Origin: Gordonia namibiensis NBRC 108229
Lineage (GTDB): Bacteria; Actinomycetota; Actinomycetes; Mycobacteriales; Mycobacteriaceae
Assembly (NCBI RefSeq): GCF_000298235.1
Contig: NZ_BAHE01000035.1
Span: 1 to 64,000, forward strand
Length of the DNA stretch: 64,000 bases
Direction of reading: 5' to 3'
The notes under the pieces are model-generated. The model made no database searches. It saw only the letters and a program-made list of their open reading frames with translations, and was not told the origin of the DNA. The position numbers and the translations under genes were made by a program. Below, piece after piece: positions 59,821-63,328 of this stretch; position 1 is the first letter of the stretch, and every line of letters starts with the position of its first letter.

Positions 59821-59919
59821 GCGGGAGAGTCTACGGTGCGAGTGCACCCGGTGTGCTGCGGAATGCGCAGGCGCCCCACTTGAAACGGCAAGCGGTTGTC
59901 CGCCATTAGACTCGGGCAG

Positions 59920-60783
59920 ATGACTGCAGGACCGCTGGCGGCGGTGGGCAAGAAGTTCGCGAAGTCGCGTGCCGAGCACGTCGCGGTGGTCCGACTCGAC
60001 GGCCCGATCGGCGCGGCCGGCATGGGCAAGCACGGGCTGACCACCGACACGGTCGAGCCGGTGCTCAAGCAGGCGTTCGCCACCGACCGGCTCAAGGCTG
60101 TCGTCGTCGTGATCAACTCACCCGGTGGTTCGCCGGCGCAGTCGGAGTACATCGCCGAGCGCATCCGGCAGCTGTCCGCGGAGAAGGGCGTACCGGTCCT
60201 GGCGTTCTGTGAGGACGTCGCGGCGTCCGGCGGCTACTGGGTCGCCTGCGCGGCGGACGAGATCTTCGCCGCCCACACCTCGATCGTCGGTTCCATCGGG
60301 GTGGTGTCCTCGGGGTTCGGCTTCTCGGCCCTGCTCGACCGGTTCGGCGTGCAGCGTCGCCTGTACGCCACCGGGGAGAACAAGGCCCGGCTCGACACCT
60401 TCTCGCCGGAGGTCGCCGAGGACGTCGAATGGCTCAAGGGTCTCCAGGGGCAGCTGCACGAGGCGTTCATCGCATGGGTCCGGCAGCGTCGGGGCAAGAA
60501 GCTGACGGCCTCCGACGAGGAGCTCTTCAACGGCGATGTGTGGGTCGGGCGCCGGGCGGCCGAACTCGGCCTGGTCGACGGCATCGGCGTCATGCGGTCG
60601 GTGGTCGCCGAGCGGTATCCCGACGCCGAGATCACGGTCATCGAGGCACCCAAGCCGTTGCTCGCACGTCTGGTCGGCAATCAGATGTCGGTCTCCGGTC
60701 TGGCCGAGGGTCTCACGTCGGGCGTGATTGCCGCGATCGACCGCGCCCCCGCGGTGCGGACCGGGTTTCTACACCGTGACTGA
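59920..60783 (+). CDS. S49-family peptidase (SppA-like)
   Basis: 287 residues from the ATG at 59920. Landmarks: VVINSPGGSPAQSEYIAERI (oxyanion region), DVAASGGYWVAC (nucleophilic Ser), GSIGVVSS and ATGENKARLDTF (general-base Lys). The short form, without a strong N-terminal membrane anchor, resembles SohB-like/short SppA enzymes that degrade membrane-derived peptides. Ends before the DnaA-box cluster. Confidence 0.87.
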   Translation: MTAGPLAAVGKKFAKSRAEHVAVVRLDGPIGAAGMGKHGLTTDTVEPVLKQAFATDRLKAVVVVINSPGGSPAQSEYIAERIRQLSAEKGVPVLAFCEDVAASGGYWVACAADEIFAAHTSIVGSIGVVSSGFGFSALLDRFGVQRRLYATGENKARLDTFSPEVAEDVEWLKGLQGQLHEAFIAWVRQRRGKKLTASDEELFNGDVWVGRRAAELGLVDGIGVMRSVVAERYPDAEITVIEAPKPLLARLVGNQMSVSGLAEGLTSGVIAAIDRAPAVRTGFLHRD

Positions 60784-60824
60784 CGGGTAATACCAGACCC
60801 AGTTCGGGGGGATTCCCCAAGGGT

Positions 60825-61050
60825 TTGTCCCCACGTTATCCACAGGTGTGTGCACTGGAAAGAAAATGCACCACCGGTCGACCCCTGCAGTTTCGTGAAT
60901 TTCCTACGCGCACATCGGTCTAAACGAGTGATCGCAGTCACATCGACAGGGGCTTTGGCCAGGGTTTTTCCACAGTTTCCACAGCCTCATCCCCAGGTTG
61001 ACGGTGAGGTGTGGATTGTGGACAGCTGTCTGTTTGCCGCATGTGGATAA
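60825..61050. promoter_or_regulatory. Cluster of DnaA boxes
   Basis: Perfect DnaA boxes are TTATCCACA (60836-60844) and, on the minus strand, TGTGGATAA (61042-61050). Near-matches: TTTTCCACA (60966-60974), TTTCCACA (60976-60983), TGTGGATTG (61010-61018), TGTGGACAG (61017-61025) and TTGTCCCCA (60825-60833). The AT-richer DNA around them fits a DnaA-binding array. The whole gap 60784-61173 (390 bp) contains no gene. The neighbours are not dnaA or dnaN, so it is not the usual oriC setting. Confidence 0.6.
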
Positions 61051-61173
61051 AGCTATGATGATCAGCATAGGTCGCTTTGGGCGGTCTGTACGATTCAGAA
61101 TGTGAGCTTCACAACACTGCTGAGAATGGCCGTGCAGGTGACGTGACGCCCGCGGGGCCTCGACTGTGCCACC

Positions 61174-61536
61174 ATGGAAATCGTGACCATGGGCGACATC
61201 ACGCAGGTGCCGGTGACCGATTTGCCGGACGACTTCACTCAGACGGCCGACGCGGTGATGCTCGACGTCCGTGAGGACGACGAGTGGGCGAACGGACACA
61301 TCCGCGGCGCCGTCCACATCCCGATGGCCGAGATACCGGGACGACTCGGCGAACTCGACCCCGACGCCGACCTGTACGTGGTGTGTCATTCGAGCGGGCG
61401 CTCGATGCGGGTGCTGCAGTACCTCGCGCAGGTCGGGTACGACGGGATCTGCGTGCGCGGCGGAATGCTCGCATGGCAGGAACACGGCAAGCCCGTGGAG
61501 TTCGGCACCGGGGACGGCGGGGGCGACGCCCACTGA
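61174..61536 (+). CDS. Rhodanese-like sulfurtransferase
   Basis: 120 residues from the ATG at 61174 (ATG at 61189 equally possible; neither has a clear ribosome site). A single rhodanese domain: MLDVREDDEWANGHIRGAVH, active-site loop VVCHSSGRSMRVLQYL with catalytic Cys, GGMLAWQEHGKPVEF. It moves sulfur from a donor to an acceptor. The next gene starts on its stop codon. Confidence 0.88.
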   Translation: MEIVTMGDITQVPVTDLPDDFTQTADAVMLDVREDDEWANGHIRGAVHIPMAEIPGRLGELDPDADLYVVCHSSGRSMRVLQYLAQVGYDGICVRGGMLAWQEHGKPVEFGTGDGGGDAH

Positions 61537-62522
61537 TGATCGACCTCTGTCCGCGGTGCCGTATCCAGGCGCCGCACCGCCCCGGGCGCGAGCACTGTCC
61601 TCGCTGTGGCGGCCCGCTGAGCGTCGTCGACGACGCCGCTCGTGCGATGTCCGCACCCGCGCGCCCCGCGCCGCCCCGAACGGCGCCGACCGGCCGGCTG
61701 TACCGCGGTCGGAACGTCCGCTGGGTTGCGCGGCGTCCTCCCGAGGCCATCCCCAGCCGCCGCGGACCGTCGGGCCCGCGCGGCCCGCGTCTCATCCCGC
61801 GCTACGTCTACATCCCCACCTGGGGTCTACACGACGAGCCGTTGGCCGCCGACGCGACGCACGACCGGATCGACTCGTCACGGGCACGCCTGCTGTTCGC
61901 GCTCGTGGTGGCCGGTACGGCGCTCGCGGCGTCGGCGGTCATCCATCTGGTCCGCTACGTCCTGCTGGCCGTCAACCGCACCCAGCCGCTCCCGGAACCG
62001 CTGATCGTGGTCTCCGACTGGTTGATCGTGTTCGCGGGTGTGGCGGCCTTCCTTGCCTACGTCTGGGCGACCCTCGCGTTCACCCGCTGGGTGATGGACC
62101 TGAGGGCCGGTACCTATGAGGAAGCCCGGCTCCTCGACCCGAGGCGTCCCCTGTGGGTGGCGGTGCTGGTGGGGGTCCCGCTGGTGAACCTGGTCGGTGC
62201 GCCGCTCGTGATCGGCGAGGTCGTGGCCCTGCGCGTGGCCCACGATCCGTCCCTCGATGCCGAACTCGTCGGCCGCCGTGTCCGCCGGCTGTGGGTCGCG
62301 TGGGTGGTCGTCACCGTAACCGCCGTCCTGGCGCTGATCGCCCGTGCCGTCGCGTGGGGATCGGACTCGGTGCAGACCGGGGCCAACGCGCTCACCATGG
62401 TGATCCTCAGCGCGGCCGTCTCGGCCGCCTTCGCCTTCTGGATGGCACGCCGCGTGCCGGTGCTGTTCGACGCCGCCACGGCGGTCCCGGTCCCGAAGAG
62501 AAGGTGGGTGGCGGTCGGATGA
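61536..62522 (+). CDS. DUF4328-domain membrane protein with N-terminal zinc ribbon
   Basis: 328 residues from the ATG at 61536 (ATGA overlap with the rhodanese stop). Residues 1-30 hold two Cys pairs (CPRCRIQAPHR, HCPRCGG) of a zinc ribbon. A Pro/Arg-rich linker leads to about six membrane helices of a DUF4328 domain (residues ~115-320). Function unknown; probably co-transcribed with rhodanese and the glycerophosphodiesterase. Confidence 0.78.
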   Translation: MIDLCPRCRIQAPHRPGREHCPRCGGPLSVVDDAARAMSAPARPAPPRTAPTGRLYRGRNVRWVARRPPEAIPSRRGPSGPRGPRLIPRYVYIPTWGLHDEPLAADATHDRIDSSRARLLFALVVAGTALAASAVIHLVRYVLLAVNRTQPLPEPLIVVSDWLIVFAGVAAFLAYVWATLAFTRWVMDLRAGTYEEARLLDPRRPLWVAVLVGVPLVNLVGAPLVIGEVVALRVAHDPSLDAELVGRRVRRLWVAWVVVTVTAVLALIARAVAWGSDSVQTGANALTMVILSAAVSAAFAFWMARRVPVLFDAATAVPVPKRRWVAVG

Positions 62523-63328
62523 ACTCAGGTGTGAACGTGGGCGCGGCCGAGAAGGTGTCGCGCTCGGGTAAGCCCGCGGTGGTCGCGCACCGCGGCGCCT
62601 CCGGGGACCGTCCGGAACACACCCTGGCCGCATATGAACTCGCACTCGCGCAGGGTGCGGACGGACTGGAGTGCGATGTCCGGCTCACCGCCGATCACGA
62701 ACTCGTCTGCGTGCACGACCGGACCGTCGACCGCACCTCGAACGGTTCCGGCATCGTCAGCGAGATGACGCTGGCCCAGCTCCGCGAACTCGACTTCGGA
62801 AGTTGGCATTCCGCGGGCGATCCCGCGTCGATCCTGACGCTGCGCGAGCTGCTCACGCTCACCTTGGACTGGCGCCGGCCGGTCCGGTTGTTCATCGAGA
62901 CCAAGCATCCGGTGCGGTTCGGCAGTCTCGTCGAGCAGAAGCTCCTCGAGATCCTCCACGAGTTCGGCGTCGCCACCCCGCCGTCGGCCGATCACAGTCG
63001 CGCCGTGGTCATCTCGTTCTCCTCTGCCGGCGTCTGGCGTATCCGCCGCCATGCCCCGATGCTCCCGACCATCCTGCTGGGCGACACCGCGCGCGTACTT
63101 GGCGGCAGTGCGGCGACCGCCGTCGGGGCCACCGGGATCGGTCCCTCGGTGATGACCCTGCGGCAGTACCCGGATCTCGTCGACCGCGCCGCCGCGGCCG
63201 GGCGCGTGACGTACTGCTGGACCGTCGACGAACTGGTGGACGTCCAGCTCTGCGCCGACCTCGGGGTGCGCTGGCTGGCCACCAACCATCCGGCCAAGGT
63301 CCGCGACTGGCTGGTGACCGTCGACTGA
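62519..63328 (+). CDS. Glycerophosphodiester phosphodiesterase
   Basis: 269 residues from the ATG at 62519, overlapping the preceding stop by four bases. TIM-barrel GDPD: VVAHRGASGDRPEHTLAAYE (catalytic His, Arg), GLECDVRLTADHELVCVHD (Glu, Asp, His), FIETKHPVRFG (Glu, Lys), end CADLGVRWLATNHPAKVRDWL. It hydrolyses glycerophosphodiesters to glycerol-3-phosphate and an alcohol. No signal peptide, so cytoplasmic. Confidence 0.93.
   Translation: MNSGVNVGAAEKVSRSGKPAVVAHRGASGDRPEHTLAAYELALAQGADGLECDVRLTADHELVCVHDRTVDRTSNGSGIVSEMTLAQLRELDFGSWHSAGDPASILTLRELLTLTLDWRRPVRLFIETKHPVRFGSLVEQKLLEILHEFGVATPPSADHSRAVVISFSSAGVWRIRRHAPMLPTILLGDTARVLGGSAATAVGATGIGPSVMTLRQYPDLVDRAAAAGRVTYCWTVDELVDVQLCADLGVRWLATNHPAKVRDWLVTVD

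Follow-up and report, generated by a model that had tools for sequence, protein, structure and literature searches.

What is a dense cluster of DnaA boxes doing in a gap between two ordinary genes, away from dnaA and dnaN? The original prediction for this locus was that its box density resembles that of an origin of replication or of a place where DnaA is titrated or reactivated. The locus is the 390-bp gap at 60784-61173 of the window (the whole 64,000-nucleotide stretch of DNA analysed), and Pfam bears out the neighbours named in that prediction: an S49 peptidase gene upstream (59896-60783, plus strand, PF01343) and a single-domain rhodanese gene downstream (61174-61536, plus strand, PF00581). 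The start of a DUF4328 membrane-protein gene (61536-62522, plus strand, PF14219) overlaps the rhodanese stop, and a GDPD gene (62519-63328, plus strand, PF03009) overlaps the DUF4328 gene.

The box cluster and the origin question

TTDTNCACA matches the gap perfectly at three sites and with one mismatch at four more. In 1000 dinucleotide shuffles of the gap, the means were 0.07 perfect and 0.97 one-mismatch matches, and none of the shuffles equalled the observed count; elsewhere in the window, no 390-bp stretch holds more than three matches. The predicted dense cluster is therefore real, with seven sites within one mismatch vs about one in shuffles. Its two perfect boxes also stand: TTATCCACA occurs twice in the gap (60836-60844, plus strand; 61042-61050, minus strand). 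These two are the only TTATNCACA copies in the 64-kb window (0.09 expected). Two of the four one-mismatch matches, at 61016 (plus) and 61017 (minus), are a single overlapping place (61016-61025) with a column identity of 0.43, i.e., not conserved in the genus.

Two other readings were rejected. The shuffles, together with conservation across 59 species, dispose of a coincidental AT-rich spacer, and a non-coding RNA was set aside because an Rfam search of 60000-62000 gave no match at E<=1. We also searched the 4.94-Mb draft genome (67 contigs), which composition and relatives suggest belongs to Gordonia, for the pattern TTRTCCACA. Its 27 sites are at chance level, the same frequency as for the reversed control; paired sites (no more than 500 bp apart) occur at three places only, namely the dnaA-dnaN/oriC region, the crgA gap and the present gap.

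A second or alternative replication origin would account for the box density and for a gap GC of 0.56, which is lower than the surroundings, but we consider it highly improbable and rejected it. The single dnaA gene is on another contig, C15, where separate boxes lie both downstream of it (the dnaA-dnaN side) and upstream, so the predicted separation from dnaA/dnaN holds. In a complete relative (G021), where the cluster sits at +184 kb, the two flanks of the cluster both have positive GC skew, and a noisy change of sign falls within 0-90 kb of dnaA. The most AT-rich 40 bp of the gap reach 57.5%, vs 65% in the dnaA-dnaN region. The cluster thus has none of three features of an oriC: a skew change, a dnaA-dnaN neighbourhood and an AT-rich unwinding element.

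The cluster is nonetheless close to the origin. In all 26 genus genomes with both genes on one contig, the cluster's rhodanese gene lies 85-322 kb from dnaA (median 153 kb), which places the cluster near oriC and outside it, as is the case for E. coli datA. It is on one side of dnaA in 19 genomes and on the other in 7, always reading away from dnaA, as inversions that span the origin would produce. This placement on either side of dnaA also counts against the origin half of the prediction.

Layout, conservation and inversion of the cassette

DnaA boxes are kept upstream of the operon in 59/59 members of the genus, with at least three matches each, and column identity over these 59 species is 0.72-0.95 in boxes vs 0.50 in spacer. 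The genus alignment gives six conserved box positions: 60825, 60836, 60966, 60975, 60987 and 61042 (reverse). Both the boxes and their spacing are thus conserved between species.

Together they span a cassette of about 230 bp between two ordinary genes. It starts with a plus-strand pair 11 bp apart, the DnaA-box-like TTGTCCCCA (60825-60833, column identity 0.88 in the 59 genus members) and the DnaA box TTATCCACA (60836-60844, 0.95). A CRP/GlxR-like palindrome, GTGA-TCGCAG-TCAC (60928-60941), is recognised by motif counts and spacing. Then comes a triplet of plus-strand boxes defined by the genus alignment: TTTTCCACA (60966-60974), GTTTCCACA (60975-60983), which abuts it, and TCATCCCCA (60987-60995), 21 bp from the first. 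This third box has two mismatches here and is TCATCCACA in most relatives. A reverse box, TTATCCACA (61042-61050, minus strand, 0.92), faces the triplet. A minority of the genus (e.g., L036, L037, L040, L043, L048, L049 and L054) keeps the boxes but aligns poorly at the triplet.

CRP/GlxR operators generally take the form GTGA-N6-TCAC. A perfect copy is present in 35 of 51 testable genus genomes, vs 0.1 expected by shuffling, and the palindrome is degenerate in one subclade. Its distance to the triplet within the genus is 38 or 59-60 bp, a difference of two helical turns.

The rhodanese-DUF4328-GDPD operon is the constant neighbour of the cassette across the family. The rhodanese gene was found in 59/59 genus genomes, whereas the S49 gene is not constant, since in some members of the genus set it was not detected next to the cluster. 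The triplet also lies upstream of the operon in named genomes of Tsukamurella spumae, Rhodococcus, Prescottella, Nocardia, Mycolicibacterium wolinskyi and Mycobacteroides, with sodA, S49 or msrA on the opposite flank (scored where the sequence covered extends that far). In M. szulgai and M. interjectum (L158, L195), no rhodanese gene was detected between the cassette and DUF4328, which is adjacent.

That the cassette stays by the same operon while its other neighbour changes counts against a self-contained regulatory element, as it would also suit an action in cis on the operon. The main rival to such an element is therefore a transcriptional one, in which DnaA acts as a transcription factor and the boxes control the operon. 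In its own genus, a conserved 18-bp dyad, CTATGATGATCAGCATAG (61053-61070; consensus CTATGNAGGTCTNCATAG in the own-genus alignment), with a TATGAT -10-like element, lies right next to the reverse box at 61042, and this dyad is a possible operator or promoter/-10 region of the rhodanese operon. It is confined to the genus and absent from the other genera displayed. If the boxes do control the operon, a membrane protein and a lipid-head-group enzyme would be tied to the cell cycle, but we consider this reading less likely than a regulatory element, partly because of how the cassette is oriented in other genera.

To follow the cassette beyond the genus, we used R1, a sequence-only model of the triplet and reverse box, which finds a match in 151 of the 201 genomes of the family. 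When joined to the GDPD orthologue, 122 among the matches listed sit 1.0-2.2 kb upstream of the GDPD gene; among the others listed, 13 have no listed GDPD match and one (own genus) has GDPD on another contig. Three further listed matches are about 72-76 kb from the GDPD gene. In genus g22, the listed matches G161:C20:1106567 and G136:C1:5654446 are about 72-75 kb from it.

Across the family the order is fixed: box pair, GTGA-N6-TCAC palindrome, head-to-tail triplet, reverse box. The own genus and its nearest genera share their distances from the triplet (-131 to -134 for the second box of the pair, -37/-38 for the palindrome), and the reverse box is +76 to +79 from the triplet start across genera. 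Variants occur at -120, -142 and -153/155 for the second box of the pair and at -48 and -59/60 for the palindrome. These steps come close to whole helical turns, mostly one or two, which suggests helical phasing, as contact between proteins bound to one face of the DNA would require.

Among the matches listed, the cassette is on the same strand as the operon in 14/14 cases from its own genus and on the opposite strand in 108/108 from other genera. With matching internal distances, this means that the entire cassette flipped at its site as one block; the simplest placement of this event is the stem of its own genus. One would not expect a simple oriented promoter to survive such a flip, so the inversion speaks against a transcriptional role. 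By sequence comparison, then, the cassette is a family-wide element, inverted as a block in its own genus.

Not every part is found everywhere. The displayed Mycobacterium cassettes have the triplet and reverse box only, without the pair or the CRP-like site. Since one subclade of the genus also has a degenerate version of that site, it is not essential everywhere. The triplet TCCACAGTTTCCACAG-N2-T-N-ATCCACA is carried by M. szulgai, M. interjectum and M. wolinskyi. An exact 27-mer pattern is present in 132 of 198 Mycobacterium-type genus genomes, as a single copy in all but one, and the reversed control had no match in those 198. Outside the family, an order-level search gave only weaker matches, and a contig pattern scan also returned, among the matches listed, unrelated box arrays, many from Clostridia.

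The counterpart in mycobacteria

M. tuberculosis DnaA strongly binds five regions in vitro, according to Hicks et al. 2020 (PMC7738170): oriC, rpmH-dnaA, Rv0010c-Rv0011c, Rv0057 upstream of dnaB, and Rv3843c-RVnc0040. The same study reports ChIP-seq in M. smegmatis, in which homologues of these five regions were DnaA-bound. The consequence of binding at the best-studied non-origin region is left open there.

The last of the five regions is the one that corresponds to the window cluster. In the named mycobacteria, the cassette gap is upstream of DUF4328 and GDPD with sodA opposite, and the same triplet is present. The identities behind this synteny (DUF4328, GDPD and sodA as Rv3843c, Rv3842c and Rv3846 in H37Rv) are ones we assume, and the DUF4328 gene is the apparent counterpart of Rv3843c. 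On synteny in the named mycobacteria, the window cluster and Rv3843c-RVnc0040 are counterparts, and by orthology with the mycobacterial site the cluster would be bound by DnaA. There are differences: the displayed mycobacterial cassettes lack the pair and the CRP-like site, the own-genus orientation is inverted, and the comparison runs through relatives, not through H37Rv sequence.

Published work describes Rv3843c as a conserved membrane protein and places the sRNA MTS2975 between Rv3843c and Rv3844; the passages covered give no replication function for the locus. Published work also names Rv3843c, with dnaA, as an isoniazid-resistance candidate, which favours a transcriptional link between DnaA and the operon. 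Against that link, dnaA mutants keep expression of the genes flanking the sister site Rv0010c-Rv0011c (PMC7738170). Literature searches found no phenotype for the cassette locus in any species, and one on DnaA box clusters in actinobacteria gave nothing useful.

Possible action of the cassette

Starting from what is observed (the box cluster, its conservation, spacing and inversion, and its proximity to the origin), our preferred reading is that the cassette is a self-contained, origin-proximal DnaA regulatory element, datA-like or titrating, and not an origin. We give this a probability of about 0.5. It is the best-supported part of the original prediction, in view of the conserved boxes and spacing and the reported DnaA binding at the syntenic mycobacterial site. 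A CRP-family protein is possibly its partner.

Such an element might work as follows. Because the cassette is near oriC, it would be duplicated soon after each initiation. The triplet and its flanking boxes would take up several DnaA molecules, and the palindrome a CRP-family protein, whose bending of the DNA would bring the DnaA groups into contact. The resulting complex would remove active DnaA near the origin, either by titration, as in B. subtilis and Streptomyces, or by DnaA-ATP hydrolysis, as at datA.

Each of these precedents matches the cassette in part. E. coli datA promotes DnaA-ATP hydrolysis (DDAH). Like datA, the cassette is non-coding and origin-proximal, with boxes around a candidate second-protein site at conserved spacing. 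Unlike datA, it has a CRP-like palindrome and another box layout (no IHF-type site was identified at the cassette). In B. subtilis and Streptomyces coelicolor, box clusters near oriC reportedly keep initiation from occurring at the wrong time (cited in PMC4585315); the likeness considered here is that of clusters close to oriC.

Reactivation, the other function originally proposed, fares less well. A locus converting DnaA-ADP to DnaA-ATP is suggested by the three-box core, conserved spacing and candidate second-protein site in a non-coding gap, and E. coli DARS1 and DARS2 also have three clustered boxes at fixed spacing. However, DARS cores require head-to-head boxes I and II (PMC10380432). 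No adjacent head-to-head pair exists here: the triplet runs head-to-tail, and the sole facing box is about 50 bp past the triplet end. We therefore rejected membership of the DARS class and consider a DARS-like function improbable.

A broader form of the preferred regulatory reading is that this is a family-wide DnaA-control cassette which uses a cAMP-receptor-type protein instead of IHF/Fis as its architectural partner and is orientation-free, having been inverted as a unit in one genus. We regard this as doubtful. If true, such a partner would couple second-messenger or metabolic state to replication initiation. Our literature search found no dedicated DnaA-inactivating or -reactivating locus of proven function for mycobacteria and their relatives. 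That M. tuberculosis has five mapped DnaA-bound regions was already known; what the present analysis adds for one of them is an anatomy (boxes, phased spacing and a candidate for the partner protein), evidence of deep conservation, and an inversion that serves as a natural experiment.

The window genome also holds box clusters matching the other four regions: two on C15, one at C16:78665-78748 and one at C14:88120-88235. The C16 cluster (L062) has two copies of TTATCCACA and four near-consensus boxes between crgA and a PH-domain-like gene (labels taken from reading the translations), and it is the counterpart of the Rv0010c-Rv0011c site, which has been tied to isoniazid susceptibility in M. 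tuberculosis. The C14 cluster (L256), with at least six near-consensus boxes in about 120 bp, is about 400 bp upstream of dnaB and is the counterpart of the Rv0057 site. In Curtobacterium (L122), a triplet is also found beside crgA, and in Pseudonocardiales (L125, L153, L164 and L175), about 4-6 kb separate dnaA from a similar triplet of the TCCACACTATCCACAGGTTTATCCCCA type.
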